Part shown: one piece after another, positions 1,190 through 32,572 of the stretch
Layout of the letters: every line of letters starts with the position of its first letter
How positions within the stretch are numbered: position 1 is the first letter of the stretch
Origin: Hysterangium stoloniferum
Taxonomy: Eukaryota; Basidiomycota; Agaricomycetes; Hysterangiales; Hysterangiaceae
Assembly: GCA_015178975.1 (NCBI GenBank)
Contig: WHVD01000004.1
Location: forward strand, 992,001-1,056,000
DNA length: 64,000 nucleotides
Reading direction: 5' to 3'
Position numbers and translations under genes: made by a program
The notes under the pieces: model-generated
What the model was told of the DNA's origin: nothing
The model's database searches: none
What the model saw: only the letters and a program-made list of their open reading frames with translations

Positions 1190-1333
1190 ACTTTCGTTGT
1201 GGCGGGTTAGGTGTACTTTATATTAATGGTGGGACGTGATCGCGTAGATAAGTTTGAGATATTTAGAACTCCGCCGCCTTAGCCTTTACTTTGGTGATAG
1301 AACTGGCAGCTAAATACTGTTGCTTTCTTCTTG
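1190..1333. promoter_or_regulatory. Divergent promoter between PAC1-like and CSC1 genes
   Basis: Only 144 bp separate the two start codons, so both promoters and 5' leaders must share this stretch. I see no clear TATA box. The compact head-to-head layout suggests possible co-regulation, which is inference. Confidence 0.45.
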
Positions 1334-4300
1334 ATGTCCACATTCTTCATCTCTAATAGCAGTGGTCCATGGGAAGGGGCTCCTCCGGGGTCACCGCCAA
1401 CTCGTTAGTATACAGGTTTGAAAAGTCATAAGCTTTGCAACTGACTGTCTGCCACAAGGGACGTTCGAGGGTCCATGGTTCACAACACAGCTAACTATAT
1501 CCGGGACACTGGGAATATTCTCTTTTCTAGTGTTCTCATATTGTAGAACAAGATGGCCTGTTTCGTTTGCACCACGAACGAAATTGAAAGGTGAGCAACA
1601 CAGCATCTGCTGCTTTATTTGAATGCTAATGGCGAAGCTTAGATTTCTCGCCACACGAAGCACATGCACATCAGGCCTTTTTCGGCTGGATAATACCAAC
1701 AATTAAAACATCAGAATACACTATTCTGCAGATAGTGGGTTTAGACGCCGCTGTGGTACGTTGGTTCAACTTCTATCCTAAACCCGTATTGACGCGTCTC
1801 AGCTCCTTAACTTCTTCAAAATGTCCTTCAAGTTCTTTAGCATTTGTTCTATTTTAGCGTTTGTTGTTCTGATACCTGTTAATGTTAGAGTAAGTGATCA
1901 TAGTGTGTTTGCGTTTGTGACGCAGTTGACCATGTACAGAATAACATTGGCGCCATTGAAGATCCACCAGACCCAGAAGTTGATCGGTGGAACTTAGCCG
2001 ATCCGTCCCCACCAGCTAATACACCTTCAAAGGATTGGATGGAACTTATTAGCGAAGCCAATTCTTATCTCACCGTCCATTTCTTATTCACCTATTTGTT
2101 CACTATCCTCGCCTTGCAGTTCATTTACAAGAACTACAAAAGGTTTATTCGCGCTCGGCAGCTCTTTTCTTTGGAGCTTGTGCATTCTATCGCTGCACGG
2201 ACGGTTCTCGTTACCGATTTACCACATCATCTTCAAGGAGAGCATGCGCTCGCTGTTTACTTTGAAAACATGGAGCTCGCTGTCGAGAGCGTCAGTCTCG
2301 TGCGTGAACCAGGCACATTGGAACAGCTACTTGATGCACGTACGCGTGCATTGATGAAACTCGAAAATGCATGGGTAGACTACGTTGGAAACCCCAGTTC
2401 CGTAGAAAGCTATGACCCCAGCTTGAATGTACGATCTGACGCGGCAGATGGCGGAGAAGGTCAACGTGAGCGTCTTATCGTCCCTCAAAAGGACAGGCCT
2501 ACCATTCGTCCAACGTGGTTTTCTTTTAAAAAGGTCGATGCTATCGAACATCTCCAGAATGAGTTCCAAGAACTGGATGAAAAAGTGAGGAAGAAGCGCC
2601 GTATGAAGTTCAAGGCCACCAGCTCTGCATTCATCACGTTTGAAAAGATGTCTAGTGCACAGATTGCGGCACAAGCCGTACACGCGCCCACCCATTCTCA
2701 ATGTATCACCCATCTTGCTCCGGAGCCTCGTGACATCATCTGGGCTAACATGGCGCACTCGCCAACGTCGCGTCGTGTACGTGAAGCAGTAGTTTTATCC
2801 ATCATGGCTTTTCTTCTGTTCTTTTGGGTTCTCCCTGTCACGGCGCTTGCGAGTTTGCTCAGTTATCAAGAGATCAAGAAAGTCTTACCCTGGCTTGGTC
2901 GTCTTATTGACTCGAGTGACCAGATCAAGGCCATCGTACAAACTTCCTTACCCAGTGTTGCTTTGATTGCTTTGATGGCCTTGTTACCTTCTATCTTGGA
3001 ATGTTGGTGTTCTCCCTGCTTCCATATTCTTAATAACTGACTAGCTATCAGTTCTCACATATCAGCAAGGTTACCGAGCTCGTAGCTGGATTGAATACTC
3101 TCTACTCCGAAAGTATGTAAGATCATGGCGATAATATCTTGTTGCGTTGCTCATGCCGTCATGTAGATACTTCCTGTTCCTTCTCGTCAACGTCGTTTTT
3201 ATATTTTTGTTAGCTAGTACATATTTGGAGCTTGTTCTCGAACTTGCCAACTCGCCGGCCAAGGTACCGGAAAGACTAGCTGAAGCTCTACAGAGAGGAA
3301 CAGCACGTCATTTCTTTTTGAGGTCAGAGGTTTTTCCTCCATAGTAGTCATCACCACTTAATCGTTTCATAGTTACGTTATATTGCAGGGATTTGGCGTT
3401 ATGCCATTGCAGTTGCTGAATTTGGGTGTGATCATTCCCGCCATATTCTCTCGGACGTTTTTTACGCGAACACCTCGAGGTAAAACCATGATTAGCTCGT
3501 TGATGGCTGCTCACAACTAGTATCGTATAGACTTCGCAGAATTGAACGCACCCCCTATGATCAACTATGGCACTGTTTATCCTCAAGCGATTCTAGTATT
3601 CGTTGTCACCCTACTCTACAGTGTCATCCAACCTCTGATCGTTTTCTTTGGCGCTGCCTATTTTGGAATTGCTTACGTCGTGTACAAATACAAGTTACTC
3701 TTTGGTATGTCTTCTCCCTTCTGAGGCGCGTTTGTTCATGTTTCCTTCTAGTCTTTTACAAACCTTACGAGTCCCAGGGGCAAGCCTGGCCAATTACATG
3801 TCACAGGCTTCTCTGGGGTGTGGTCATCTTTCAAACGCTCATGACGGGCATCTTCACACTGAATCAGGCGTATATCATGGCGACTCTCATGGCACCTCTA
3901 ATTGCGTTTACGCTATATTGGGGTTGGCATATGGATCATGCATTGCAACCGTTAAGTAAGTTTGTGAGCTTGAGCTCCGTATTTGAAGTACAGCGGGGCG
4001 AAGATTCGGATGACTTTTTGAGGTTACGTGCTGGGCATCCGGTGACGCTTTCCCAAAGGTTCGCTTTTGCTGTCAGATCGTTTTAATGCGCTATAACGAG
4101 ACTATCGACAGTAACCTAAGCCGAAGGCGGTACGCCCGAAATGATGAGACGCTCTACGTTGCTCCAGAGGATGACAGAACAGATTATGTGGGCTTGTCAG
4201 TTGTGAACTGTCTGATCTACTCCTAATTTTATATCAGTCGCAACCACCCATGCAGGGATGGTACCCAGGTGTATTGAAGTGCGTTCACTCGTCGTTTGGT

Positions 4301-5037
4301 TAACACACTGCTGACATTCTGTCTGTAGCACTGGCAAGCGACGTTACGGCCATCCAGCATTGACAGGTGTTCTTCCCCAGCCATGGCTACCCATCAAAAG
4401 GGGTCAGTCTTTGGCCAACAACATCGACCGGGGAGGCGCCGCCGCTCGAGGCGATCAAGCTGTTGTCCTGACATTACGGAAACGTTATAGCGTTGTGCGA
4501 CGCGACGTCCGTGACTTGGTCAACAACCCCGCATCCCCAGCTCGAGATCTCTGGGACTTGCCTGCTTCGTCTGCAACTCCTCAAACGCCTAACGGCAATA
4601 GTAAAGCCCGGCAACGTACGACTTCTATCGGCGCAATCTCAACTGGGTCGAATCCATGGCGAGACCGTGATTCTGATCAGGAAAATCAGACCATGGCGAC
4701 TCGCCCTCCTCTGCGACATACCCAGTCCCAGCCTCAGCCAGCTCATCATCGGATGAGCTTCGATCAGGCCACAGGAGTTATTGTGCTCCCGGAGAGTGGT
4801 GAGTGGATATTACAAGACGAGGATAGCGATTCAGAGGAGGGCGGTACGTCACGCGAGGCCACGCAGCATGAGCCTGAACCTGAACCTGGGTCACCTTTAG
4901 CGATGGCCGCGACCACACCACAAGGGACGCCGACGGTGTCGGGGGATGGTGTTAGACATCGTACATATTACCATCATCCAGAAAGACGTAGACTGACGTT
5001 ACCTGGTGGTTTCCCCCATTCGAGCCCCCAGTCATGA
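1334..5037 (+). CDS. CSC1/OSCA-type (DUF221) calcium-permeable osmosensitive channel
   Basis: Thirteen exons: 1334-1403, 1459-1590, 1643-1755, 1803-1889, 1940-3002, 3052-3112, 3167-3322, 3373-3479, 3531-3704, 3752-4058, 4112-4187, 4238-4278 and 4329-5037. They sum to 3096 nt, 1031 aa. Family landmarks run in order: first membrane segment with the LVFSYCRTRWP junction, FSPHEAHAHQAFFGW, IVGLDAAVLLNFFKMS, the long cytosolic domain with the RRM-like pair (AARTVLVTDLP; SSAFITFEKM), then TM segments including YQQGYRARSWIEYSLLRK, NAPPMINYG and WPITCHRLLWGVV. The C-terminal tail is Ser/Pro-rich and acidic. CSC1/RSN1 proteins are plasma-membrane or secretory-pathway channels gated by osmotic or mechanical stress. 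Most splice junctions restore conserved sequence. The start at 1334 is chosen because its exon is in phase through a 55-nt GTTAGT..AAG intron; it is the least certain part. Donor GTGGGC at 4188 is weak. Confidence 0.9.
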
Positions 5038-6391
5038 GGACTGCGTTTATGACCAACATTTGCATTCTTGCTTATATTATGACCACTTGTTCCCCATCTC
5101 GACACTTCTCTTTATTATTCGTCCCATCTTGACACCTTTCTTGCATTCTATAACCACTCATCATCATAAGGATTCTTTTCTTTTGCTTTGTTGTATACCC
5201 TACATCCAATGCATAAATGATGCCACCATTGGCAAAGTACTCTTCGGCCAAATATTTCAAGTGGTTACCTATCAAGTTGCCACCTTCATTCGAGCTTCCC
5301 ACGTTCGGTTTGACGCTTGTCAGTTGGGGAAGGGGTGGGGGAAGCAAAGACATTTACACAACAGATTGTGAGATGAAGCCAAAATACTCTAAATCTCTAA
5401 TTTTGTCTTTGTTTCCGTGTTCATGGCATGTGTAAAATATTGTAAATGGTGCAGTACCCCTCCCGTAGTACTAGTAGGACCAAACACTAAGGAAATTATC
5501 ACTCAAACTGCACGATTAGTAAAATGAGGAATAAAATTATTGTGGGGTTAGAAATAATATCGACGACTGGTCATATTGGAATAAATTGGCAAGATTTCCA
5601 GCATGTTAAGTTGAGACGATCACAACTTCAGGATGCTGCTATCCAATCTCCCCATCGAGCTTGTGCCGCCTTCAAGATTCGATATGTATGGAGAAACCTT
5701 CCTCCGTAAACATACGATCCCTGCGATTAAAGCTACACTGATGCGTTTGCAGCGTGTCCCTTATTGCATTGAGCGCGGCCTAACATCCTTTGCAGGACAG
5801 GTCGCAGTGCGATATGTGTGATGTGGCGATCAACATATTGCAGTGGCATTGTGCATAATGCGAATATCAACGGTGTGAGCTTTCTTTTGAATCAAAAGAT
5901 TCTAGTCTGTTATTTCGTTTCGTGGTTCGTTGATCTATAAAAGTTACGCTCGTGAAGTATGGTATAAACCGCGAGCCCTTCTTCTCCTTAGACTTTTATG
6001 GCGATTTGGCGGGCCTTCGTTGCATTAAGGACCCGACGCTGTCTCCGATGACTCACAGTGAACAAGGTGCATGCACCGAGCACTGCCGCAACAACAAGTG
6101 GCTTCGTGGGCCACCGCTGCACATGGGCAAAAGTCGATTCCTTCCGCAAACATGTGAAACAACACCGCATGCAATCGGGAATTTATAAAAATCCTCCAGA
6201 GTCACCACAAATGTGGCACGCGAGGGCTCACAGTGCTGTGAAGAGGTCACTGAGGATGAGACGTGACGCCACTCTGAACTCTATGTTCTATTAAGGTGGC
6301 AGAGCACGGGGAGCACGCCACAGAACATACTTGCAAGGTGTAGAAGTGTCAGTAAAAATCCGCATTCCTCGGTTCACGGAGCGCTGTGTGG

Positions 6392-6454
6392 AAGCGACTC
6401 CATATCAGAATATGGAGTCGCTTACTTAGTAACTCGGTGGGGAGCATACCGAGT
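6392..6454. repeat. Two adjacent hairpins
   Basis: A perfect 13-nt inverted repeat (6392-6404 with 6411-6423, arm AAGCGACTCCATA, 6-nt loop TCAGAA) is followed 8 nt later by a 7-nt one (6432-6438 with 6448-6454, ACTCGGT/ACCGAGT). Function unknown; no T-run follows. Confidence 0.6.
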
Positions 6455-8623
6455 CGTCCGGGACCAATAGTCGAAGGGTAGTATTTGATTGGTACAAGGA
6501 ACCTGAGCGGGGAGAGAACCATACAACACACGAGTATGGTATGAGTAATCGTATCCTCATGAACCAATATGCAGGTATCGAAGTCAAGTCCCTGGAGGCT
6601 CAGGTTTGCGAGGGCCGAGCAACTTGAGTAACAGGAGAGGATGTAGCCCGTGCATGAGTGGTTCAGGCTCGGGGAGGCGCAGGTGTGGCGGTAGAGTTCT
6701 ACGTTAAATTGGTATAAAATAATGTTCAAATTATTCCAGACGGTACCATTATTCATCAAAAGAATATGTTGACATCAATCAGACGCTCCCTGAAGCTTCG
6801 AGTTTCAAAACGACCCAGAAATTGGATCGGACATTGCCCTTGAATGAAGCTTCCGCCAAAACTAGCCAAAAAAATGATCTCTGTAAGTGTTGTTGTCTTA
6901 ATACTACTTAGCTTGAAATACTGTTTCGTAGCATTTGTTCTTGACTTCAGTTAAGTCATCTATCATGGCTATTTAGGTTAAGATGTTTTTAGAATAAATA
7001 GAACGTGCGCGGATGTTTTCTTCAGATGGAAGAGGTGTGGGAGTGTAGATGATTCCACATCCCTCGCCAATGGGTATCAATTTGAATAAGAGAATGACAT
7101 CCGCGATCTCTGTGCTTGGATGAAGGGGGGGGGCCTAGATTAGAGTCGTCGAGCTTGCTCACACTGCGCCAGGATGCCAAAAGTTCCTATTGAACTCACT
7201 TGAAAAATGCGACAGGATGACGTGCGGCACAAGCCAATGGGCCATGAACCATTGAATTCAAGAAAGTAGTTGCGAACTTTGCGATTGAGAGTCATTCCAA
7301 AAAGAGAAAATAAATTGAAGCAAGGCGTATTGTGCACCTGTTCGCCTGCCAATGACGACTATCATGCGACAGGCTCGGAATCCGCAAAATGTAAACGCTC
7401 GAAAAGGCGACAAAGTATAGATATAGACCAGCCACTAGTCATGGGACTCGCATTGCTCATTGATGAACGCTATCATTATTTAAACCAGAGGTCACCAGAG
7501 AGGGGAGCGGAATTCGCGGCTCTTCATTGTCGCATCGTGTCATACATGGCCGACGTTGGTCGACATCGGCTTCGAATTCGTTCACTGCGTCCAACAGTAA
7601 AAGGCGCCATGACAAGGCTAATGATTGTTTATCTTGACATAGACTGCATCGTGAACCTTATGTGATATTTCTGGTAGCCATCTAGAGATGCAGCATTAGA
7701 TTGAAGTAAGGCCTTTCTGAAGTCGCCTCGTTATATCACTTTCGTTTTCTTGAGGTCAGTAGTCTGCCATGAATAGAACTCACCAACTACCGGCTCTTCA
7801 TCAGGTCGAGACTCACAAACTGGAAAGTCAGTCAAAACTTGACAGATGTTTTCCCTGTATCGACATAATGAATTGCCGTCGAATGAATAGCAAGCTAGTT
7901 TTGTATGTGCTCCAGAGAACGTCTGGTTTTGCCGGCGTGCCGACCACTAGCCCAGGGGTTATTTTGCTTTTTGTTAGAGTCGCGACAGTCGTCGGTAACC
8001 TTGTAAGGATCAGTCTTACTAACTGTTTCAATGCACATTGGGGATCTTTTATTATATGGCCAAGTGAACACCTGACAATGTCAACTTGAACTTTGAAGAG
8101 TCGGTTTTGTCGTAGCTTTTCACTGGCATCTGCCCAATCGGAGGGGGAGGGTCAAAATGCATATTGTAATACATGTCGAGTAAACGATGGTTATTCTTTA
8201 ATATTTGGTTCAGAGCTTAAGCAGTTTGTCTTGTAGATATTTCATCAACGAGATCGGAGGACCACCGTACATTCTAGTGCATAGTCGCCGTCGCCCGATC
8301 CTACGAAACTTTGTTGTCGCCCCCTTAGTAACCCTTCTTTTATAAAATAAAATTTCCCATAGCACCTTCTTTCTCTCCCAAGGTGCCTGTTGCCTCTGAC
8401 GTCGCCAATAAAGTTGACAGTATATTATTACATTGGTGGGCAAACCTACATCTAGCCTTTCCCCCTAGCCTTGTCTCCATTTTTGTCAGCTATATTTCAA
8501 ACACAGATTCCATATCTAAGGTTTATATGGCAATTGAATTATCTCGGACCAACAATGCTGGTTTTTTTAATCAAATATCGTGTGTTACGGCACAACGGAG
8601 CTCTCAGGGTTTTCTCCTTTGTC

Positions 8624-8630
8624 TATAAAA
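8624..8630 (+). promoter_or_regulatory. TATA box of the GH28 gene
   Basis: TATAAAA lies 58 bp before the ATG of the pectinase gene, a usual spacing for a fungal TATA-driven promoter with a short leader. Confidence 0.6.
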
Positions 8631-8687
8631 GTAGACCGTCGATGAGGAGGGAATCCTCATTCCGAGATCATTGGGACCGCTCGCATT

Positions 8688-10683
8688 ATGTTTTTTGTGA
8701 ACAACCTGCTTTCTTTCGTTACGATCACTTACATGATCGGCCACTCTTTCGCCGCCACCTGTAAGGTGGTACCGCGGGGTGACGGCAAAGACGACCACGA
8801 CGGTATCGTCAACGCCATGAAAAATTGTGCCCATGGTGGCGCAGTCGTTCTCCCTGCCGGGAATGTTTATACCCTTGCTTCACCCATTACAGCTGATGAA
8901 GTTAATGCTCTCAATTTGAGGGGTATGACAATTACCATCAATGGTGAGGGATATCCCGAATTCCTAATTCTTTCAATTGTTACTAATCGTCTTTAATACA
9001 GGTGACATCAACTACGTAGGTGCTTCATACTTTTCTTTCTACCCCACCCACTCAAACTATCCATCGATAGGAATACCCCGTCATTGACGACAAGCAGGAC
9101 AGTGTTGTTTATTGGACGATATCTGTGAGAATTCAGATATTTACTTTTGTCTTAACGCTCAATTTTTTATAGGGCAAGAACGTTGACGTTGGTGGCTTTG
9201 GAACGATTAAAGGCCACGGTCAACAGTGGTACAACGCTAATTTTCGTGGCCCAAAGTATGTAACGCCCCGTTTAATAGTTTCTGAATTATCTATATTGGG
9301 ATTTTAAGGCTCATGCAATTGAAAATCAACACTGGCTCGCTTCGGGATCTAACTTTCAATAATGGAGGAGGACACATGATGATCATTGGCGGTACCGATT
9401 TCACTGTGGGCAATGTCACGATTCACTCCGTTAGCAATGATTACACAAATTCCTTCCCCCACAATGTGAGTGATTTTGATGATTTCTTCGAGTATTTTAC
9501 CCTTTTATCTTAATTTCTAGACCGATGGGATCAACATCAATGGACAACAGATCACTGTATGATGCACTTTATTTAAGGGGATAATTTCTACATATAACAT
9601 CTTCTCAGGTGAAAAACACGGATATTATTGGAGGAGACGATTGTAAGTCCCATGTAAAGTGCATTTACCCAGGCACCATATTCTCAACTCGGGTTTTAGG
9701 CATCAGTTTTCTTGATACTGCGGACTCCATTGTGAGTTTGAAGTCGTGAAAGAGAGAAATGTATGCTGATATGTTTCTGGGATATACTAGCATATAAATA
9801 ATGTGTATGGAGCATTTGTATTCGTCCATATTTATTGTTGATTTTATGGTAAATACAGGAGATGCGGAGGCCCGACACACGGGATCAGCGTCGGTACACT
9901 TGGTAGTGAGGATCCGAACGGCGATGATAAGGGATCTGTCACAAATGTTCTAGGTCCGTCTGGATATTCGTGTAGCTCCTATCACTATGTCTTTGACACC
10001 GCTATAGTGGAGAACATCGAATTCTACGATGGAGGCGATGGCTTGGCAAGTTGGCCTGCTTTTCAACGGCCACAGTTTATTGCTCGCATCAAGTGATATT
10101 TCTGTTCTACAACTTGCCTTGAGCATCTCAGTGACTCATGCCATCACTAGAACCTATAATGCCTCCGCGAGTACTGGTACAGTGAGCAACGTGACCTGGA
10201 GGAGCATTACCGCCAATTTGGGGGTGTCTGCAATGGGAAAGAGTCCAATCTATAGTGAGTTGGTTTTTTGGTTTTCCGTACAACCCTTACATTTCTATCT
10301 TTTAGTTACCCAAAATCACAATAATAAAGGACATGAACAGGTTCCTGGAAACTCTGGAATCAACATCAAGGATATTACGTTCTCTGACATTTCGGGTGGC
10401 AAAGTCCTTGATGATGACAGTGGTGTAGTGTCGTAAGTCTTTAGGAATTAACGTGATCTGCTCCATAACTTCCTTGCCTAGAATCACTTGCTCAAACAAC
10501 CACCAATGCCATAACATCGTACTGAAGAATATAGACTTCCAAACCAAGATTGATGATGTGTAAGTTATAACTTCTTTGCAAATTTCCTCTTGATGGCGAA
10601 CTTCTCTGACCTAATGCCCTCTTTTTCGAACCACCAGTTGTACCAATGTCGTGGGGCTCGATAATACATGCGAGCAGAGATAG
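8688..10683 (+). CDS. Secreted glycoside hydrolase family 28 (exopolygalacturonase-like)
   Basis: Fifteen short exons separated by introns of about 48-80 nt; protein of roughly 400 aa. It begins with a signal peptide (hydrophobic FVTITYMIGHSFA, then ATCKV). GH28 landmarks in order: TDGININGQQITVKNTDI across exons 6-7 (the family NTDG box, here HNTDG across a splice), GGDDCISF (two catalytic aspartates), CGGPTHGISVGTLG (catalytic-loop His-Gly), and ARIK (substrate-binding Arg-Lys), then a beta-helix tail ending in a Cys pair (CTNVVGLDNTCEQR). Exons 2 (GTGACATCAACTAC) and 9 (CATATAAATAATGT) are 14-nt micro-exons. The gene would cleave polygalacturonate outside the cell during plant-tissue decay or symbiosis. 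Odd point: about 14 residues between FYDG and ARIK look inserted. PTHG in place of the usual GHG leans to an exo-acting subtype, but that is inference. Confidence 0.85.
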
Positions 10684-13609
10684 ATAATCAATCTTCATAT
10701 TTTCTTGATACGGTTTTCTGGTTTTTGAGTAACTGAAATATTTTTGTGGAGGCTCGATATTATTCAATAATAGTCTTTGTGAAAAATGATTGTACGCATA
10801 TCATAGTTTTAAACAACCGCGGGCCAGTACTAGCTGAAAAGAGTGTCTTCAGGTTTATTCATAACTTCACGCATCAGCAGAGAATAACTGTAAAATATTG
10901 GGGGAAAATAAGTTGCTTTTTATTATGATACATCATACTTTCAAATTAAATGTACTATACAGTGTGTGGGGTGGTCCAACAAGCAAGATCCTAGAGTTCA
11001 GCCTACTGACCCAGACCCGGCCATTGATCAACTCACCTGCCATTTTTCTGAGATAAAGTCCTCCATATTGTACCGATAGTGCGCAACGCGATAATCCTAT
11101 CGCATCACGAATCGGTAGGCCAAGATCAACTATAGCGGCTCTACAACCCGCTAATTGTTGGGAATCACTAAGTCAACGTTGACTTAGTGGTTCTCAACAT
11201 TAATGTTCACCGAGTGACGGTTCTGGCTATAACATCAGGATGGATGCCACGGACTTCATATCTCACTCTTACAGAACGTCCAACTAGATACTATTTCACA
11301 AATTTTGGGATATCGTTTAGCTACAAGCGAACCAAGGGCCCGGCCCGCCTCTTGACATGCCCATTTTTGGCCTTGACCGAACACTCCCTGAATTCCAGGA
11401 TGAAGGATATGACCGGCCTGGCAGTCCTTTTGAACCGATGTGTATTATCTTGGGAATCAAATCCGAAAAGACTTCATGAACGTATGAATTCCTATTGTCA
11501 CGAACCATTGCTTATAGATTGCGCAGGGCTATATAAACCTAAACTTCATGTCGAAACTGGTATTTGACATGGTACGGGAAAATCCGTCTACCCCCTACAT
11601 CGACCAAGTAGTCGCTCGATTTGATATAATAATACGTTGTCTTAAAACATCTCAGCTCCGGTCATGCCTAAAATTCAGCTCTGATGCGACTTACCCTGAC
11701 CAAATGGTCATTAGGCGTGCTGAGTCCACCACTTGCTTCCAATTGAAAGAACTCCTTCCGATACCCATAATTCTTAGCCGGCCGTGTTTTACCCCTTGTT
11801 GTATTTTACTCCAGCCATAAATCAACACATTAAATGTCATAATTTCATGTATATATCCAAAATGGGTGTTCGCTGACGTCGTCACCACGGCTGGCCATTC
11901 GTCCATCAAGAAACCGAGTATTGTTTAGTAAATTAATTTCTTATCACTCATGAGCCAGGACTATGAAGAACAGAGACACAGCAAGATTAAACTATCAGAG
12001 ACAAGTAATAGTGGTATAATGGACGATACTACGGTATTATAGATGACTTCAACGTGATAAAAGAAAGACGCTGGAATGAGCAGCTGGTGTAATCCTGGTC
12101 GCATTACCACATACGCTTACATTGGCCTACAACCATCACTTCATCGATTGCCTCCCCGATCACTCTCCGATCACTCTTATTTTCCATCTCCGTCCTGATC
12201 AAAAAACTATGCTTTCCTTTATTCTTCCATTCTTATTGTTCTATTCCTTATTCTTCGATTCCTTTGTTCCACCCGTAGGTATATATTGGCTTGACTCTTA
12301 CACAAGAAATCATAAAAAGAAAAACACACGCTGTATATTCTATCTTCTATCATCTACAACAGATATACTCTTTTCCTGTCCGTTACTGGCTGAAGTGAGG
12401 TCGATACCAACAGCCTTTCAGCTGGGTGGGTTTGGGGAAGAGGTAGAAAGGAAAGACGGTGGGGCAAGAATAGAGGAGCAATAGAACAGAGCGAGACCTG
12501 GAGCGTGAATAATGGGTCAAGAAAAGCAAAAGGAATGGCCCCGAATAAATAGGATGGAGCCACTCTCGCAATGCGTCAATGTGGCGGATGGAGGGAGGTG
12601 TGACATTCCAACTTCCTGGGATAGAGCCCATCAATGATCCTAACCGATGGCACGGCCCAATCGTTGGATCTTTTTGATTAACGTGCACCCGAAAGGTTAA
12701 GAAAAGACAGGTGACCACCAAATCGCAACTTGATGTGGAGGAAGTCGTCGATGTCCCTGACTAGCTCTCACCAGATGCGAACCGTACTCACGTTATCTGC
12801 AAGCCAGTAAAGCCTTCAATCTCTGCAGCCACATCCATTTGAAAGGCCCAAGTTGAGGCTCAACTGTGGGACGATATTTCCGAGATTTCCGCCTAACTTC
12901 GATATTAACGAGGACTTCAAATACAGGGTAGGGCCCAATATGTTCCTTTCTCGCCTGTTTCGCTCAAGTTGCGTAGATCTTTCCTGCGGAATGGAGTACT
13001 CTAATGAAGTACTTTACTGGAAAGGCTCCCAGGTAATAAAGAAATTGGGACGGCTAATACAGATGGCCACGAGGAAAAGAAAATGGCAGCGAATAAGTGA
13101 CAAGTTCCTTGGTCAATCTCGATTGTCCCTAAATATCAGAAAATGCAGCTTCTGCATATTTCGCTTCTGACTTTAGTGGAACGGATATTCAACGCTTATT
13201 CGTTTGATTCCGTTGTGTTTTTCAATGCGAACTGTTTAGGAGAGAGCACCAATAACAAGAGTTGGCTTCATTGGTAACCTACTACAGCCTAACTATAATT
13301 ATACCTCGATTCAAGGGGCACGATCCAAAAGAAGATAAACTTCAAGGTGAACATGACAGCGTTACATTCAGTCTGTTTATAATAGAAGAAGTGAAAAGAA
13401 CCTGGGGTATAATGAATTATATGTCTCCATGTACGTCCAAGTCCAATAAGAGTCCGGTTTGACCTATGGCATTCGTGGTACACTGGCAGTTGGAGCTGTC
13501 CCGCACAGATGGTCCGAAATATGTCTATAAGACAAACTGCAACTTCCGAGAGAGCAGTAAATAACTAACACCCCCCACGGCCATAAAATAAAACGCGATG
13601 AGCAGCAGC
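10684..13609. other. Intergenic spacer, no gene recognised
   Basis: No domain or credible multi-exon reading frame found. It contains a strong palindrome around 11178 (separate entry). 12120-12560 is rich in pyrimidine tracts, but I cannot assign it a role. Confidence 0.55.
11166..11189. repeat. Perfect 24-bp palindrome
   Basis: CACTAAGTCAAC is followed immediately by its reverse complement GTTGACTTAGTG with no loop. The symmetry continues imperfectly for about 16 more bp on each side (about 11150-11205). Such a centre can mark a fused inverted repeat or a symmetrical protein-binding site. Confidence 0.7.
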
Positions 13610-20223: not shown

Positions 20224-20460
20224 TGTTGGAATAATGGATTATGTGAGCATGCACAATGTGCTACACCAGTTAAGCCACCCCATTGTTGTTAGCTTGTCCC
20301 TTTGTTTTATTGTTCTTTTGTTCCACTTTTATGTTGTGTCACAAAAATCTATTGTTCCTTTTAGTTAAATAGAGCAGCTACATGATTGTATCTACATGCG
20401 TTTGCAACAGAGTTGGCAAACTTCTTGCTTACCTGCGATCCCCTGCCTGTAATTCTAACA
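20224..20460 (+). repeat. 5' LTR of the inner gag-only element
   Basis: 237 bp, identical by eye to 21581-21817. Confidence 0.9.
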
Positions 20461-20691
20461 CAAACGCATTAGAACGAAGCCGCTCCGAAGTCTGTTGATC
20501 GTTATCACCATCGTTGTCGCACCCTCGTATCCGTCGTAACCTGCCACTGGGGCCGAAGCCAGCTGTTTCCATTGTTGTACCGTCGTAATCCATTCTCGTC
20601 GTAACCCGCCACTGGGGCCGAAGCCAGTAGACATTTGTTGTCGTGCCGCCCTTTTATCGAACCGCACACTTTTTAATATTGCCACGCATTT

Positions 20692-21540
20692 TTGGATCAC
20701 CCTATTATCGTTTGTCGCACCATCATGCCGGAAAACCTACGTTTTGCGAAGCTCAACGAGAGCAACTATGCCGAATGGTCACTATACATGCGCGCTATAC
20801 TTGTAAAGAAGAGTTTATGGGGAGTAGTTGATGGAACAGAAACCAGGCCTACCGGATCAGCAAATTCCAAGACTATTCGTGCTTATGAAAGATGCCAGAC
20901 TGAAGCCCATGCCGAGATCGTTCTCCACCTCGAACCCTCCCAACTCCCACATGCCCACAATGAAGACTCGAGAGAACTCTGGAACGAACTTCAGCGAATG
21001 CACCGTGCCCAAGGTTTTGCCACTCGCATGACGCTACGTCGAAAATTTAATACCATGACGAAACGTGCTGATCAATCGATGAGCAGCTGGATCGCAAATG
21101 TTCAGCAAGCCGCCTTTCGCCTGAATGAGGTTGGTTACATTGCCACTGATGAAGACAAGATTCTCGTTCTTACTCAAGGTCTCCCACGCTCCTATGATTC
21201 ATTCATTATCTCCCTCGACGCTTCTATTGCTGCTATTACCACCGGAAACGAACTTAAACCCGAACCAGCCATTTCGCTCGAAATTGTGAAAGCTCGCCTC
21301 ATCAATGAGGAAGCTCGCCAACTTGCCGCTAAACCGACTTTGCCCATTCGCAACAATGTTAAACCTGATTCCGAGGAAGCTCTGTTAGTCGAGCCAAAGC
21401 CTCGTACCCCACTTTCGGACATTACCTGTTTCAAGTGTGGTAAAAAAGGCCATTACCAGTCGAATTGCCCAGACAATACCCTTGAAGACAGTGCACAAGT
21501 TGTCACTGAGGATTCCTCCGACGAAGATAGAGCCTTTTGA
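20692..21540 (+). CDS. Copia-type Gag (UBN2/DUF4219 family) with CCHC knuckle
   Basis: 282 aa if begun at 20692. The ATG at 20725 (MPENLRFAKLNESNYAEW) is at least as likely, because family members usually start just before the LN-x-x-NYAEW motif. Residues ~12-200 show the Copia gag fold signature (YAEWSLYMRAILVKKSLWG; SRELWNELQRMH; ILVLTQGLPRSYDSF). A zinc knuckle CFKCGKKGHYQSNC lies near residue 245, followed by an acidic tail (EDSSDEDRAF). The product would form the virus-like particle and bind RNA. Open throughout, unlike neighbouring elements, which suggests selection or youth. Confidence 0.85.
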   Translation: MDHPIIVCRTIMPENLRFAKLNESNYAEWSLYMRAILVKKSLWGVVDGTETRPTGSANSKTIRAYERCQTEAHAEIVLHLEPSQLPHAHNEDSRELWNELQRMHRAQGFATRMTLRRKFNTMTKRADQSMSSWIANVQQAAFRLNEVGYIATDEDKILVLTQGLPRSYDSFIISLDASIAAITTGNELKPEPAISLEIVKARLINEEARQLAAKPTLPIRNNVKPDSEEALLVEPKPRTPLSDITCFKCGKKGHYQSNCPDNTLEDSAQVVTEDSSDEDRAF

Positions 21541-21580
21541 TTGAGGGAGTGTTTAGCACCTTGTTTTGCTCAAGGGAGTG

Positions 21581-21817
21581 TGTTGGAATAATGGATTATG
21601 TGAGCATGCACAATGTGCTACACCAGTTAAGCCACCCCATTGTTGTTAGCTTGTCCCTTTGTTTTATTGTTCTTTTGTTCCACTTTTATGTTGTGTCACA
21701 AAAATCTATTGTTCCTTTTAGTTAAATAGAGCAGCTACATGATTGTATCTACATGCGTTTGCAACAGAGTTGGCAAACTTCTTGCTTACCTGCGATCCCC
21801 TGCCTGTAATTCTAACA
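21581..21817 (+). repeat. 3' LTR of the inner gag-only element
   Basis: 237 bp, TGTTGG...CTAACA, preceded by the purine tract CAAGGGAGTG. Confidence 0.9.
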
Positions 21818-22453
21818 CAACCATCTTGTAGCCCTTGGGCATAAAATGGCTTCGGATCTGCTTCTCGAATGTCTCCCATGATGTGAGCTTCAAGAAATCT
21901 GTGCAGCCAGCATTCCACCAGGCAGTCATTGTTGGTTCTTGCATATTGGCACCTGCAAGTCAGATCTTTGTCTCAATAGAGAGGTCTGGAGCTTTGTCCA
22001 TTTTTGTGGAAGTGTAGATAGCAAATCCATCCTCACACTGGCCAAGTCACACTTCAATAGCAGTTGCTGTGAGAGGGCCAGTGAAGGTGGTGATGATCTT
22101 TGATGCCATCAGCGATGTGTCACTGTCATTGTTGCTGTTGTCTGAATTGGGAATGTATGTGGCAATGGAAGGCGATTTCACATGGAACTGGATAGGGGAG
22201 TGTGAATTGTGAGAGAATGTGAATGAGCAGTGTGGCAAGTGAACCAGGTGCAGTGGAATCGTCCAGAGTGAAAGAAATAGTAGAAGTGGGTGGTGTCAAA
22301 AAAAAGTGGAATCCTATTGTCAATGAGATCACTGGTGGTCACACGAGTTGACAGGACCACAGTGTATTGTCTAGAACTGAGACAGGATACAGGAGGTTAC
22401 AGCATATGGTAAGGAAAGAGAGAGAAAACTACCTAGGCTATATACATGTATGA

Positions 22454-24880: not shown

Positions 24881-25208
24881 TATATGATTAAAAACAACAT
24901 ATAATACTTATAGCTAGTTATCATTAGAAAGTGTTAGAATATAGGGCTATGCAAGCATGTGTTAAGAACTAGAAACTGACTAATGTCGGTGGCCGACGGG
25001 GACCGATCGGGAGGACTTGGCTTCAGCTTATGTGCTGCGCCCTCACAAATATCCGTAGGTTGTCCTTAAATTTCGGACAGGTGAAGACTAAATCCTAAGA
25101 AGAACCTTTCGGCGAGATACCGATCAGAACCGAAGGACAAGTCAAGTGTCAGGCCAAGGGATCGGGGCCGAGAGTGGGCGAGCGCACGCGAAGGCGGAAG
25201 GGGGATTC

Positions 25209-25594
25209 TGTTAAGTGCCATGTCGGGAACTTATTCCGGAACTATCGGGAAGTCACCGGGAAGTCGGAAACTCGTGGATAGGGTCAGGACGTCGGCTTCA
25301 GCTTATGTGCTGCGCCTCTACGCAAACGCTCAAAGTCCTTAATTTCGGAAGTGAACTAACGACGGAAGATATGGATATTCAGAGTTCCGAAGAGTTCCGA
25401 ATATCGAGCGTACAGAAAGATGGGAGGAGGAATAAGAAACTAAGTCGATATCAGATCTAAGGTAAAGTACAAATTCGCGGAAACTAATATAAGTCTGCTC
25501 GTTATTGTACTACAAACTAAGACCATAATAAGACGGAAACGGAAGTGGGAGACCGGAAGTCGGATATTGAAACATCCGGGAACGGGTCGTAACA
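25209..25594 (-). repeat. 3' LTR of Gypsy-1
   Basis: 386 bp, TGTTAAGTGC...GGTCGTAACA on the plus strand; contains the shared hairpin motif at about 25286-25318 and the 11-mer ATATCAGATCT near 25450. Confidence 0.9.
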
Positions 25595-25722
25595 GTACCC
25601 CCCTGTTAGGCCGAAATCCCATAGAGGCGATTAGGTACTAAGTGTTTGAAGCGACGGCTGATTGTTATGTGTCGTGAAATTTACGCAAATATGGAGGTGA
25701 GAGTTTCGGCTGTTATTCTGAG

Positions 25723-25729
25723 TATAAAA
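25723..25729 (+). promoter_or_regulatory. TATA box of the antisense gene in Gypsy-1
   Basis: TATAAAA 50 bp before the ATG of the antisense gene, just inside the 3' LTR. A similar box stands at the same place in Gypsy-2. Confidence 0.6.
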
Positions 25730-25778
25730 ACCTCCAAATATTCGAATTAATGTTTTTGTTTCTTTAACCACAACTTGT

Positions 25779-26933
25779 ATGTCGATTCGTCGGCCGTTGT
25801 TCATCACTACCCCGGAAGACTCAGATACCGAAATATCCGTACTTCAAAAGATGTCGAAAGTCACAGAACTTCAACAAAAACGCCAGAAAATGGAGGAGTT
25901 GAAGCGACGACAGGAGGAGGAGGAAAGAGCGTTGATGCAGGAGTTGAAGGATGCAGAGGAGGCGGAAAAGCGGGAATTGGAGCGGGCGAAGGCGGAAAAA
26001 GAAAAAGAGTTGGCGAGGTTGCGGAAAGTGATGGAGGATCGGAGGTTGAAGGAAGAAGAAGTGAAGAAACAACAAGAAGCTGAGGGGGCGGAAAAACGTA
26101 AGGAGGTAAGGGAAGGAAAGGTGAGTCCGATTCCATAGATTTCCGTGGTTCCAACCGATAACTGTTGCGTACAGCGAAAAGCCGTGGAGGTGGACGTAGA
26201 GGGCGAAGCTGGACCTTCGAGTCCTAAAGTGAGTGTATCTGTAACGGAAACAGTAGTCGTTTAACCTCCGAAACAGAAACCAAAGGTCAAAGCTCCGGAA
26301 CGAATGGAAGTCGTCCACGAAACTCCGTGTTATCGATGTTCCATACGGAACATGACGTGTTGGAAACAGAAGGTAAAATGGGGCGGAACTTGCTATCCCT
26401 GCGCGGTTCTCAAACTTCCGTGCACCCTTGCCTCAAAAAGGGTTCCGAAAGGTGAGAAGACTCCGAAAACTAACGATGCGGAAAGTTCAGGAGCGGCCAA
26501 AGCTACGGAAACTGAAATGTCGAAAACGGATAGTACAGGCATTGAGCTTCTCAAGGAAACCGTCGACGCGTTGGTTTTTATCAGGACGGAAGTCATGAAA
26601 ATGTGGGATACAATGGATCGCCATAATGATATCCAGGAGAAAGGTTTCCGTTCGTTGGTCCGGAATTTCCGGAGGCAAAATGATTTCCTGGAGAAGATAA
26701 TGGTTAGCATTGGTGTAATCGCAGTATCCAAGGGGTTTTCCGATAAGGCACGGGAAAAAGCTAATGATCCGTTGGCGGAATGTGTTGAAAAGAGGTGGGT
26801 GTCGGGAAAAGGGCCGGAAGAATCAGAGAGTGAAGATGAAGAGGTACAGGATATGGTGGAAAGTGTGGAAATTGCTGAAGAGCCGGAAGTTGGGACGGAA
26901 GGTGGATTTGGGGTGTCAGAGACTTTAAGATAG
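25779..26933 (+). CDS. Antisense accessory gene in Gypsy-1: coiled coil plus Zn2Cys6-like cluster
   Basis: Lies on the strand opposite gag-pol. A first exon (25779 to about 26119, MSIRRPLFITTPEDSD...) is almost wholly a charged coiled coil (QKMEELKRRQEEEERAL). Two introns with GTGAGT donors and CAG acceptors, each in phase 0, fit between it and the last exon, which is open to 26933. The last exon starts with six cysteines spaced C-x2-C-x6-C-x10-C-x2-C-x6-C (CYRC...C, CYPC...C), the spacing of fungal Zn(II)2Cys6 clusters. It continues with a helical segment (FRSLVRNFRRQNDFLEK) and an acidic tail. Total about 350 aa. The role is unknown; DNA or RNA binding and regulation of the element are possible. 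A related cluster occurs in Gypsy-2, so this is a conserved module, not a chance frame. Confidence 0.6.
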
Positions 26934-29900
26934 ATTTAATAATATTTTTTGACTTGCAAATTCTAAAACGAGTGTGAAAACGGAAGTGTCGGAAACTTGA
27001 ACAGAAAAGAACAGAAAGATTAGAGTGATGATAAAGGTCCGGGTTTGCCTGGATAAGCCGTGTGGAAGTCAGTAACAATTTCCATAGCATGTCCAAGTTC
27101 CGTGGCCAATATCCATGAAGTTTCCTCGTCGGTACCTTCATAACCTGCCCATTTGACTAAATAGAGCAATTTACAAGTACATCGGCGATTGTCGATTTTA
27201 GAATCCAATATTTCGGAAACTTCGAATTCAGGTTCTCCATCAATGATGACCGGAGGGGACGGAGGTTGAATACGTTCCGGGAATGAGTTAGGAACACAAG
27301 GTTCTAGCATGGAAACGTGGAAAACGGGGTGGACTGCTCGCATACTGTCGGGAAGACGGAGAGTCCATGAAAGTGAACCGGCTTGTGCTATAATTTCGAA
27401 AGGTCCTAAGAATTTCTCAGCGAGTTTTTTAGAAGGTCGGGTAGTACGGAAGAATTGAGCTTTTACAAAAACCTGATCACCAATTTTAAAATTAGGAGGC
27501 GGGATCCTGTTTTTGTCCGCAGAATGTTGATAATATTCCTGTGCGGAAGAAATAGCTTTCCGAAGTTCTTGATGTAATTCGTCGAGATCGGTAATAAATT
27601 CTTGAGCACAGACCGAAGCCAAATCTCGTTGGGAATGTACTGTGAGATTCGGATTATAGCCTTTATTGGCGAAGAAGGGAGATATGCTGGTGGTTGCATT
27701 CGGGGAGTTATTGTAGGCGAATTCCGCGATCAGAAGAAGGGATTTCCAGTTGTCCTGTTGGTAATTACAATAGATGCGGAGATATTGTTCCAATGTTTGA
27801 TTAACGCGTTCCGTTTGTCCATCACCTTCCGGGTGATATCCCGAGGTGAAGTGTAGTTTCATGTCGAGGGGCTTTTCCGAGGGCCTGGAAGAAATGGGAG
27901 ACGAACTTGGAGCCTCGATTGGAAGTTACGTGAGATGGAACTCCATGTTTGGAAAATATGTGAATAATGAAAAGTTCCGCTAATTGTAAGGACGTGATTG
28001 TATCATGAGTGGGTATGAAAATGCCTTGTTTCGAGAATCGGTCCACAACAACTAGAATGGATGTAAAGCCTTCGGAAGTCGGGAGTTGTTCGATAAAATC
28101 CATGGAAATTGAATTCCAAGGTTTTTCTGGTATCGGGAGTTGTTTGAGAAGGCCGTACGGCTTATGCCTCTGGGTTTTGGAGCGTAAGCAGGTGGTGCAT
28201 GACTTACAGAACTGAGTTACGAAATCTCGGAGGTTGGGCCAAGTATATTCTCTACGGATTAAACCAAGAGTATTGTTGATGCCGTAATGTCCGGAGATTG
28301 GATGATCGTGTTTATACTGAAGTACGCGGAGTCGGAGATTGTCGGAATCTGGAACGTAGATACGTCCATCGAGACGGATAAAACCTTGAGAGTCTTGTGA
28401 CCATCGGGGTTGGTTGGGATTGTCGGGAACTTCTAAATGTGGCTTGAGGGCCGGGTCGGAAGTGAGTGCGGAAAGGATATCTTGATGTAATTGCTCAATG
28501 TCCATAATCATGACGCTACGCATAATTGGATAGTAAAGGGAAGTTGCTCGGATAGATGTGGAAAGTTGTTGCATTGTAAAAACCGGTTTCAGGTTATGTG
28601 GATTAACAACAGCGTAGTTACTTTCCCCCTCTTTAGGATAGACGTCCCATCGTCGAGTCATGGCATCTGGCTTTCCACCAAGACGTCCGGGTCGGAAACG
28701 GATAATCATGTTGAAAGCGGAAAGAAATTCAGACCAACGGGCCTGCCGGTGGGTTAAAAGTTTAGTGGTAGAAAAATATTCGAGATTTTTGTGATCGGTA
28801 ACGACGTCAACGGGAGTTGCGGAACCTTCGAGATAATGGCGCCAATGTTTGAAAGCTTCAAAAATTGCCAAAAGTTCCTTATCATGAATGTCGTAATTGA
28901 GTTCAGATAGTGAAAGTGTCCGAGAAAGAAATGTGACCGGATGAATTTCACCGTCAGACTCTTGAATGGAAAGAATCGCGGCAATTGCATAATCGGAAGC
29001 ATCGGTTTCCACAATAATCGGAAAATCAGGTTTCCAATGGGAAAGAATCGGGGCAGAAGTGAAAGCATTTTTTAAAGTCTGGAAGGCGGAGCGGCATTTG
29101 TCGTCAAAAATCCATGGTTGAGTTTTACGGGTAAGACGAGTGAGCGGTACTGTAATATCTGAGTAGTTCCGAATAAAACGACGGTAAAAGTTGGCAAAAC
29201 CTAAAAATGATTGAATGTCCTTGACCTTCCGTGGTTCGGGCCAGTCACGGACAACTTGAACCTTGGTTTCGTCCATGCGGAGACCCTCAGGTCCGATAAT
29301 GAAACCTAAGTATTCAATAGAATCCATGTCGAAATAACATTTTTTACCGTTGGCGAAAAGACCGTTTTTACGGAGTCTTTGGAAGACTTCACGGACTTGT
29401 TCATCGTGAAGAGCGGGATCCTCGGAAAATACCAAAATGTCGTCCAAATAGACTATAACACATACGTCAAGCATGTCGGAAAATATATCATTAACAAAAC
29501 GTTGAAAAGCGGAAGGGGCGTTGGTAAGGCCGAATGGCATAACCAACCATTCAAAGGATCCATAGCGAGTCTGAAAAGCAGTTTTCCATTCGTCACCCTC
29601 GGCAATTCGGACCAAATGATAGGCGTGTTTGAGGTCTATTTTGGTGTAAATTCGAGCTTTCCGTGGGGCGTCGAGTAAGTCGGTAACGAGTGGGAGTGGA
29701 TACTTATCTTTCCGTGTGATGGAATTTAACCCTCTGAAATCGACACAGAGTCGAAGAGAGCCGTCCTTCTTTCAGACAAAAAGGACGGGTGCTCCATACG
29801 GAGACTTTGAGGGACGGATAAAACCTATCGACAGATGTTCATCCAGGAACTCCCGAATAGACAAAAGTTCCGATTGGGATAATGGGTAAATAGGTCCTAA

Positions 29901-31954
29901 CGGAGGGTTTGAACCGGGCTCAACATCGATTTTTAAGTCGTAAGGCCTATGTGGTGCAAGCCTGTCAGCTTTTTGCTTACTGAAAATGTCCGCGAAATCA
30001 TGGTATTTTTCGGGAACTCCTTCCAGGTCGGCTTTTAGCTCAGATAATTCTGGAGTCGCAAAACGACCAGATGCTTCATCAACTTTTAAGCTGATCGAAA
30101 AACATTGCGAGCCATCCAGTTTACTCGCCCTAACAAATGCCGAAGCGTTGATGAGAGAGATTTTTGGGGGCTCGGAAGTTTCGATAGAAGCCGGAGATGC
30201 CGTTGATGCCGAAAAGGCGTTGGCCGGAAAAGACGCTGCAGGAGGAACGGAAGTGTCGGGAGTCCGGAAAGTAATACTGCCCAATACCCAGTCAATCAAC
30301 GGATTATATCGGGTGAGCCAGTTGTATCCAAGAACTGCCGAACAGCTAGAGTCCAACTGTGTTATGAAAAATGTAACCGTCTGGGATGTTCCACAAGGGA
30401 ACCGGATAGACATGTCGCAGGCTTGAGTAATTGCCGTATTGCTAGTGCCGTCAAGCAAACGCAAGGAAATTGTGGGAACAGAATGGAGTTTCAGATTATG
30501 TTTCGTGGCAAAGGTGGTATCTACAAAACAGTGTGTAGAGCCGGAATCTATTAGAGCTCGGAACACTAAATTTCCAAGAAAGTCAGAGACGAGTTTTACG
30601 AATAATGAATCGGGATTAGAGAGAGCGGACACGTTGAGACGGATAACCTCGGAAACACGGAGAGAGTCAACGCAACCCTCTGTCCGTGCAGATTCCGGAG
30701 GGTTGCTTACTCTTTTTTTGACTCCGTGGCGGGTTTTTCCTTAGATGTCGTAGTCGTAGTGGAAGTTGCCGCGCGAGCCTTGGAAGAGCTGGATTTAACG
30801 GTACAGTCGGAAACCTTGTGTCCGCCTTTCCCGCAGAAAAGGCAGAGGTCGTTGTCCATACATTGTTGTTTCTCCTTCGGGGTGAGTTTACCGTCGGTAC
30901 CCAACAAATGGGAAATGTCGGGTTTGTCGGAAGTTGACTGTTTTTCCTTGTTGGATTTCTTGTCTTTCTTCCGGTCGGAATTTGATTTGCCAGTATTAGT
31001 GCCAGAGCCGGTATTATTGCCTGAGTTGTTGCCAGAAGACTTGCTAGTTGATGCCTTGTTGTTCTGAGAACGTTCCGTCAGGTTCTCTCGAGAGACCTCA
31101 GCTTTTCATTCCCAATAACAGGCATTGGATGTTTGAGCTTTCATCCGCATGAGTTGGAGAGTTTTTGGCTTCCCATCTTTGCAGATTTCGTCTTTAAGGC
31201 ATGACGGAAGTCCCATATAGAAATGGTGCCTGAGGGCGGAATCGTCCCATCCACATCGTGCGGCGAGGGTATTGAACTTGACGAGATAATCGGAAACTCG
31301 TTGATTGTCCTTCATCTTGAGCGTCATTAGTTCGTTTTCTGCTTCGCCGGATTGGTCAAAAGGTCCGAAATTAGTTTCCAGTTCTTCCACGAAAGCATCC
31401 CAGTCGTCGAGCCATACAGGTGTCTCGTCGGATATTCCGGATAGTCCGGGTTCGAACCAATCCTGAGCGGTATCCTTGAGATATGAGAGTGCAAAATTGA
31501 CTTTTCGACTGTCGGATTTAAAAGCATTGGGTCGATCACGGAAACTGAAACGGCATTGAAGAAGGAAATTCTTCAATTTTTTTGGATCCTTGCCGGTAAA
31601 TGGTTTGGGTTCTTTGACTCCGGTGCAGGATGATTCTTTGCTATCCTCAGCGGATTTCAAATAGTCAGCGAATTTCACAATGGAGTTGATAAACAACATT
31701 TCAGTCGGTTCGTCGGGAGATTTCTTTTTCGATGTCTCCGGCTGATCTTCTGCTTCGTTGTCGGAAGTATGGGGATCATTGGGATCCTTCGTTACCTCGG
31801 TAACCTCCTCGGTAACTTCTTCGATTGAAGCTGATGTTGTCGGCTGAATTGGGGTTTCGGGTTGGGTGGTGTAAAGTTGCAACGGGGATTGAAGTTGGGA
31901 TGGTCCTTCGGCAGCTTTGCGTTTGGGACCCATGATGAGCGAGTCGCAGAGTTG

Positions 31955-31965
31955 AGATCTGATAT
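31955..31965 (-). other. Primer-binding site of Gypsy-1 (self-priming type)
   Basis: Two bases inside the 5' LTR, the sense strand reads ATATCAGATCT. Its exact complement lies inside the LTR at 32207-32217. It does not look like a tRNA 3' end (no TGG). The layout matches the self-priming of Tf1/sushi chromoviruses. Confidence 0.65.
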
Positions 31966-31967
31966 AC

Positions 31968-32572
31968 TGTTAAGTGCCGTGTCGGGAACTTATTCCAGAA
32001 CTATCGGGAAGTCACCGGGAAGTCGGAAACTCGTGGATAGGGTCAGGACGTCGGCTTCAGCTTATGTGCTGCGCCTCTACGCAAACGCTCAAAGTCCTTA
32101 ATTTCGGAAGTGAACTAACGACGGAAGATATGGATATTCAGAGTTCCGAAGAGTTCCGAATATCGAGCGTACAGAAAGACGGGAGGAGGAATAAGAAACT
32201 AAGTCGATATCAGATCTAAGGTAAAGTACAAATTCGCGGAAACTAATATAAGTCTGCTCGTTATTGTACTACAAACTAAGACCATAATAAGACGGAAACG
32301 GAAGTGTTCTTAAAACGGAAATACAATAAGACATATTAGGAAGGCAATATTCCGTAACAGGAATATAACAAACAAACGAGTGAATACTTGTCAACGGACA
32401 AATTACCAAATGTGGAACAAGGGAAGAATGCGGATGATACGGTAACTATGATGTTCCGTAGTCGGAGGTCAAAGTCGGAAGTCGGGGATCGGAAGTCGGG
32501 AGTGGAAGACCGGAAGTCGGAAGTGGGAGACCGGAAGTCGGATATTGAAACATCCGGGAACAGGTCGTAACA
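31968..32572 (-). repeat. 5' LTR of Gypsy-1
   Basis: 605 bp; in the sense direction begins TGTTACGACC and ends CTTAACA. Hairpin motif at 32045-32078. GGAAGTCGG-rich short repeats fill 32440-32545. Confidence 0.9.

Follow-up and report, generated by a model that had tools for sequence, protein, structure and literature searches.

Antisense genes, or aORFs, have been described in plant Gypsy elements, where the examples are gene23 of Grande, the aORF of RIRE2 and TRP28 of Retand (PMC7264820, PMC11963269). According to the passages cited, the antisense protein of Grande is nuclear and its gene has its own promoter (PMC7264820, PMC11963269), and the TRP28 proteins of Retand are predicted to bind DNA (PMC11963269). 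HBZ of HTLV-1 is mentioned in a passage of the same source (PMC11963269). For fungi, passages of three papers describe brtn, an antisense gene of Boty-like Gypsy elements in Botrytis cinerea (PMC7264820, PMC8365987, PMC4227169). A review passage calls the functions of antisense extra genes in LTR retrotransposons unknown (PMC7264820). Two other systems are relevant here, again as described in the passages cited. The VANC protein of Arabidopsis VANDAL elements binds short words in which its own transposon family has become rich, and this leads to a loss of methylation (PMC5735166, PMC10398659), and Zn2Cys6 factors bind CGG triplets (PMC11534201).

In this report, we analyze a stretch of 64,000 nucleotides from Hysterangium stoloniferum (hereafter, the window), in which a Gypsy element, Gypsy-1, carries an antisense gene. 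Judged by its structure, the selection acting on it and its homology, the gene is a genuine accessory gene of a fungal Gypsy chromovirus lineage.

Gypsy-1 occupies positions 25205 to 32306 (7.1 kb), with gag-pol on the minus strand. Its 3' LTR relative to gag-pol (25205-25594, minus) pairs with the aligned part of the 5' LTR (31964-32306, minus), and the two are 98.8% identical across 343 nt. The LTR of the window copy is about 190 bp shorter than those of other copies (568-589 nt in five LTRs measured). Gag-pol (27020-31933, minus) is spread over several frames that encode gag, protease, RT-RNaseH-integrase and a chromodomain (27062-27226, minus; a PF00385 match). Gypsy-1 is thus a Ty3/Gypsy chromovirus, with all of these components between its LTRs.

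The antisense gene lies opposite gag-pol on the plus strand, with the chromodomain on one side and the 3' LTR on the other. This placement, antisense to gag-pol in the interval from pol to the 3' LTR, is that of an aORF-3R. A TATA box (TATAAAA) is located at 25723-25729, and exon 1 (25779-26120) begins with the start codon ATG at 25779 and encodes 114 aa that include a charged coiled-coil region. Intron 1 (26121-26174) separates it from exon 2 (26175-26228), whose 18 aa end in GPSSPK, and intron 2 (26229-26276) separates exon 2 from exon 3 (26277-26933). Both introns are of the GT-AG type and in phase 0, and their lengths are 54 and 48 nt (51-54 and 47-48 nt, respectively, among copies). Exon 3 encodes a six-cysteine cluster, a helical region and an acidic C-terminus and ends in a stop codon. 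The cluster (26328-26423) is Zn2Cys6-like, with the spacing C-x2-C-x6-C-x10-C-x2-C-x6-C. The spliced product, of 350 aa, therefore consists of a coiled coil, a short linker, the six cysteines, a helical part and an acidic tail. The first-pass annotation, made from the sequence of the window, had proposed the TATA box, the ATG, the coiled-coil exon, the two in-phase GT-AG introns and the six cysteines, and all were found as proposed.

Two alternative views of the locus were discarded. An in-frame TAA near 26262 could have been a nonsense mutation, which would have made intron 2 false; this was overturned by the alignment of copies, as intron 2 contains an in-frame stop in 41 of 43, and the intron as first proposed is right. 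We also considered that the antisense protein might substitute for the nucleocapsid, and dropped this idea because Gag already has a CCHC knuckle, present in 15 of 21 oriented Gypsy-1 stretches (the window included; some stretches are truncated) and in L057, a copy of the related family described below.

To place the gene in its genomic context, the host assembly (111 Mb, 554 contigs) was searched exon by exon, which gave 225 matches to the antisense gene from 133 scored candidates. PF00172 and PHM7-like genes mark this genome as fungal. Among the matches listed, the exon-3 places have 69-96% identity and are mostly free of stops. Part of the places listed were aligned as 43 distinct copies, including that of the window. 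The TATA box and the start codon are conserved in all 42 copies that have sequence there. Intron 1 has GT..AG boundaries in 43 of 43 copies and intron 2 in 42 of 43, the exception (L011) having a larger deletion. The length is not divisible by three for intron 1 in 6 copies and for intron 2 in 4, and for an exon in 2 of 42. Spliced frames are intact in 24 of 42 copies and broken in 18, by stop codons (16 copies) or frameshifts (2). Of the 40 copies with a spliced length divisible by three, 39 have the cysteine pattern. Loss of the frame and of the cysteine positions in most related elements, which the first-pass annotation had named, together with dN/dS near 1, as an outcome that would refute its reading, is not what these copies exhibit.

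The same annotation had suggested a comparison of substitution rates. Because the antisense gene does not overlap pol, whose stop is at 27020, selection on it can be measured free of interference. The median dN/dS among the 24 intact copies is 0.29 (276 pairs, of which the 275 with dS above 0.02 were used), a value that is not near 1 and that indicates purifying selection. In the same 12 copies, the ratio is 0.32 for the antisense gene versus 0.28 for RT-integrase, and the lowest pooled ratio, 0.21, is that of the cysteine-bearing stretch. Pairs of copies are not independent, and we therefore rely on the ratio and give no P value. In its number of copies and in being conserved like the other genes of the element, the locus again resembles an aORF-3R, and it is almost certainly a real, spliced, protein-coding gene.

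A homologue exists in a second Gypsy family. The first-pass annotation had attributed a TATA box, a coiled coil and the same cysteine spacing to a distant relative in the window, Gypsy-2. The spacing in antisense exon 3 of this copy (51972-52376, minus) is indeed identical to that of Gypsy-1. Its TATA box, however, was not recovered, as the minus strand has no TATAWA between 51900 and 53100. In the window copy, the coil exon carries a frameshift, and an integrase fragment fused to it takes the place of its 5' end. The window copy is decayed and rearranged: pieces of gag, protease and integrase are on the minus strand, and the integrase C-terminus and chromodomain (50965-51803, plus) are on the strand opposite to antisense exon 3.

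Some other copies of Gypsy-2 are better kept. A TATA box is located 197-199 bp upstream of the coil in 7 of 8 other loci checked, a genome search with the antisense exon gave 150 scored matches, and the cysteine spacing with stop-free flanks was observed in 9 of 10 loci examined. Three better-kept copies (L055, L057 and L058; together, Gypsy-2b) have the antisense gene. In L055, exon 1 ends in KREGK followed by GTGAGT, exon 2 ends in SSPK, similar to its counterpart in Gypsy-1, followed by GTGGGT, and exon 3 begins with K-x-K; the introns are 50 and 49 nt long. Both intron positions and phases are common to the antisense genes of the two families. The Gypsy-1 and Gypsy-2 proteins are matched by blastp with E 4e-6 (38% identity over 99 columns) and by hhalign with 94.8% and a score of 37.2, which none of 100 shuffles that kept the cysteines reached (at most 31.3). 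With purifying selection, splice conservation and this homologue, the accessory protein-coding module suggested by the first-pass annotation is strongly supported. Between Gypsy-1 and Gypsy-2b, antisense exon 3 is 23-25% identical and RT-integrase about 80%; by this measure, the antisense gene changes far faster than RT-integrase.

Two further observations concern Gypsy-2. Many of its copies have TGA stops, which is what CpG to TpG decay would make of CGA codons. Also, the Gypsy-2b stretch L057 contains a perfect 975-bp inverted duplication (1-975 and 5927-6901) that includes the end of gag and puts a gag segment beside the antisense gene.

Zn2Cys6 clusters follow the pattern C-x2-C-x6-C-x5-12-C-x2-C-x6-8-C, and a run of basic residues is usual in their first loop. 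The antisense proteins of Gypsy-1 and Gypsy-2 both have six cysteines with this spacing; the basic run is thin. The host has Zn2Cys6 genes of its own (42 PF00172 matches in its genome), from which a reference set of 11 domains was obtained out of 18 fetched stretches. When compared with this set by hhalign, the cysteine block of Gypsy-2 gave 92.8%, and none of 100 cysteine-kept shuffles reached its score. The block of Gypsy-1 gave 17%, and 25 of 100 such shuffles reached its score; resemblance of the Gypsy-1 block to host Zn2Cys6 domains beyond the cysteines was thus not found. The zinc-cluster reading of the first-pass annotation therefore gains direct support in Gypsy-2, and in Gypsy-1 it holds only through homology to Gypsy-2.

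PF00172 was listed for 2 of 5 antisense proteins tested, and in all 5 it was below the cut-off of 21 bits (best, 11 bits in L055; 8.8 bits in the window copy). When solved structures were searched with a profile built from the two families, nothing significant was obtained; PPR1 (1pyi) was listed with E 2.4 and was aligned over the cluster. AlphaFold, given exon 3 as a single sequence, returned a mean pLDDT of 48.8 and three C-terminal helices, with no confident model of the cluster. Among IMG/VR viral contigs, 147 pattern matches were obtained, none of which was confirmed. Overall, the antisense cluster is likely, though not proven, to be a divergent Zn2Cys6-like cluster, and the product of the gene is probably a zinc-cluster DNA-binding protein.

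CGG is the classic half-site of Zn2Cys6 factors, and a word with this core is abundant in Gypsy-1. CGGAA, counted together with its complement TTCCG, occurs 91 times in the 7.1-kb element versus 81 times in the remaining 56.9 kb of the window (8.9-fold), and it is the most enriched 5-mer of Gypsy-1 among those seen at least 8 times. Per kb, the LTR has 28 occurrences, the antisense gene 20 and gag-pol 9.6, versus 1.8 for the copia element of the window and 1.3 for host sequence (1-13000). The LTR of the window copy has 11 occurrences, where dinucleotide shuffles give 1.5 (0 of 1000 reached the observed count), and five other Gypsy-1 LTRs have 12-17 versus about 2 expected. The antisense genes of other copies contain 9-23. 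The 184 bp separating the LTR from the antisense start contain no such word.

Coding regions were assessed by synonymous shuffles, which preserve the encoded protein. In gag-pol of the window copy, CGGAA ranks first among canonical 5-mers (38 versus 17.6, z 5.5), as it does in the antisense exons of Gypsy-1 (21 versus 8.9, z 5.3). For 4-mers in these exons, GGAA ranks first and CGGA second. In the long ORFs of four other Gypsy-1 copies, for which 5-mers were counted on a single strand, TTCCG has z 2.9-5.1 and CGGAA z 1.0-3.8; TTCCG ranks second in two of these copies, fourth in another and below the top four in the last.

Gypsy-2b favors a different word, with the qualification that word length was picked per family after looking (5 for Gypsy-1, 4 for Gypsy-2b). 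CCGA/TCGG is the first canonical 4-mer under synonymous shuffles in gag-pol of L057 (107 versus 63.1 expected, z 7.4). It is also first in L055, in the antisense exons (22 versus 13.4, z 3.2), where CACCG ranks first among 5-mers. Upstream of the Gypsy-2b antisense gene, TCGG reaches 20-26 per kb, compared with 5-6 per kb in host sequence and in copia. Gypsy-2b shows no excess of CGGAA (z 1.5). An enrichment of CGGAA in another stretch, L056, was rejected as a property of Gypsy-2, as most of it is within a nested Gypsy-1. Each family has thus accumulated its own word (CGGAA versus TCGG), although the words overlap in part: TCGG has 13.8 occurrences per kb in Gypsy-1 (5-6 in host and copia), and CCGA has z 3.0 in Gypsy-1 gag-pol.

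Two elements that lack the antisense gene serve as controls. The first, the copia element (57734-62817), looks intact, with terminal 239-nt direct repeats that are 98% identical and ORFs of 528 and 801 aa; over 1329 codons, none of its 4-mers or 5-mers exceeds z 3.4. The second, family B (L078, 4 kb), is a distant Gypsy with an open pol, whose RT-integrase is 40% identical. In family B, neither the cysteine pattern nor a blast match to the antisense genes was found, and its 135-codon antisense frame is without the cysteine pattern. Over its 695 codons, no CGG word is in excess, and CGG is depleted (z -5.0). A CGG-core word is favored in each of the two families that have the gene and in neither of the two elements that lack it; this association comes from one host genome and from two families and two elements, of which family B contributes only 695 codons. 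In family B, the chromodomain region is also followed by an open frame of 160 codons on the sense strand (L078:2242-2721). Elsewhere in the window, 240-nt direct repeats that are 100% identical and 1357 bp apart, start to start (20224-21820), flank a plus-strand ORF of 282 aa (20692-21540); this appears to be a small LTR element of very recent origin.

In both families, the words are biased about 2:1 towards the antisense strand (CGGAA, 63:28 in Gypsy-1; TCGG, 93:43 in Gypsy-2b), and in Gypsy-1 the bias holds in the LTR as well as in the genes. The C-rich gag-pol strand may explain this bias, and an RNA signal could do so too. Apart from codon periodicity, the words show no preferred dimer spacing.

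Given that CGG-core words are loaded into these elements, self-recognition is plausible. We propose that the antisense protein would be nuclear, would dimerize through its coil and would bind double-stranded DNA by its zinc cluster. It would recognize the CGG-core word accumulated in the LTRs and genes of its own family (CGGAA in Gypsy-1, TCGG in Gypsy-2b) and would bind copies of that family along LTR and body. Such binding might keep these copies open or tune their transcription, by activation or de-silencing, and in this way the element could both tag its own copies and control them. That the protein is a self-recognizing DNA-binding regulator of this general type, VANC-like in its working, built from a fungal zinc cluster and putatively anti-silencing or regulatory, seems to us a matter of even chances. 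The narrower statement that the putative protein recognizes the words loaded into its own family seems a little less likely than that. A code of self-recognition, in which protein and CGG-core word diverge together while the polymerase stays conserved, so that each family would bind, open and express only its own copies, is a more tentative reading. As part of this reading, the word would enter gag-pol dozens of times through synonymous codon choice, along with the LTRs. The contrast noted above between antisense exon 3 and RT-integrase is what is expected if protein and word change together. That the protein would mainly de-silence or activate the element encoding it is possible, and we propose it with low confidence.

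The most serious competitor accepts the gene as real and selected but takes the CGG-core words to be bound by host factors, of the zinc-cluster type or otherwise, that drive the element; the antisense protein would have another task, such as aiding particles or nuclear import. The host does own Zn2Cys6 genes, the words are densest in the LTR, and a cited passage reports that the antisense-encoded protein of plant Grande is nuclear, its role being unknown. Host factors do not readily account for words above synonymous expectation in coding regions on both strands, nor for a favored word that differs between two families in one host, and the two elements without the gene are also without the word. 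We therefore regard this explanation as unlikely.

The words could instead be a by-product of mutation or context bias, such as RT error, codon context or CpG spared from methylation, and have no binding role. Both words contain CpG, the stops of old copies look like CpG decay (the many TGA of Gypsy-2), and the strand bias tracks composition skew. Retention of the word between close copies is also unremarkable: above 95% identity, the retention of CGGAA in the antisense region (0.844) does not exceed that of words lacking an edge CpG (0.875). In RT-integrase, the corresponding values are 0.832 for CGGAA, 0.806 for other CpG words and 0.884 for words without an edge CpG. However, a single CGNNN context is prominent, as CGGAA makes up 10.7% of the CpG words, with the next at 3.7%. 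In the antisense region of copies below 85% identity, CGGAA is better kept (0.574) than other CpG words (0.396) or words with no edge CpG (0.456). Moreover, related families differ within one genome, and copia and family B show nothing similar. A by-product likewise seems unlikely as the explanation.

If the words acted in genomic RNA, as UUCCG and CCGA, they could serve packaging or translation, as a signal to which either the antisense zinc protein or Gag binds. The strand bias in both families is in line with such a signal, but both orientations exceed expectation in Gypsy-1 coding regions and Gag already has its CCHC knuckle, so that we consider this very unlikely. Finally, the view that there is no functional protein, the locus being a chance or fossil antisense ORF or a source of antisense RNA acting via silencing, draws on the 18 of 42 broken frames and is, against dN/dS of 0.29-0.32, splice-aware frame conservation and homology across families, extremely improbable.

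In the open-access literature searched, in which many journals are missing, neither a fungal antisense zinc-cluster gene nor family-specific word loading was among the matches listed, and the word "antisense" is absent from the main texts of PMC3248453 and PMC2864245. The novelty suggested by the first-pass annotation must be narrowed accordingly: as far as the passages cited extend, an antisense gene in a fungal Gypsy element had already been described, as brtn of Boty, and a zinc cluster in such a gene in fungi was not seen described. What the Gypsy antisense protein adds is a DNA-binding-type cluster combined with a concrete predicted target word that differs between two families in one genome, which makes the role of an antisense gene directly testable. 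If our proposal is correct, fungal LTR retrotransposons would have a VANC-like system of self-recognition, and synonymous sites of a transposon would be under selection for protein binding.

Each of the known systems shares part of this arrangement. The brtn gene of Boty, reportedly attributable to Zhao 2011, is likened here by description only, and the passages on it describe no word loading. The plant aORFs agree with the Gypsy-1 gene in position and orientation but, according to the passages cited, have another domain; Retand, moreover, has tandem repeats and belongs to a non-chromovirus lineage, whereas Gypsy-1 is a chromovirus with dispersed CGG words. HBZ of HTLV-1 is likewise a regulatory protein that a retroelement encodes in antisense close to its 3' LTR, but it is a bZIP protein and not a zinc cluster, and the comparison is by description only. 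Among fungal Zn2Cys6 factors, PPR1 (PDB 1pyi) has six cysteines and CGG words, and its site, TCGG-N6-CCGA, contains the Gypsy-2b word. The antisense cluster differs in lying below the Pfam cut-off, its middle loop has 10 residues (the 11 host examples range from 5 to 11), and its coil precedes the cluster, whereas in factors such as PPR1 the coil follows it. The likeness to VANC, as far as the passages describe it, consists in an element-encoded protein and a short word of its own family that differs between related families; in Gypsy-1, binding and anti-silencing are predicted. VANDAL elements are DNA transposons with longer words in noncoding tandem repeats, whereas the short words of the Gypsy elements are dispersed through LTR and coding sequence. 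The Gypsy antisense protein may therefore work like VANC without being a member of that group.
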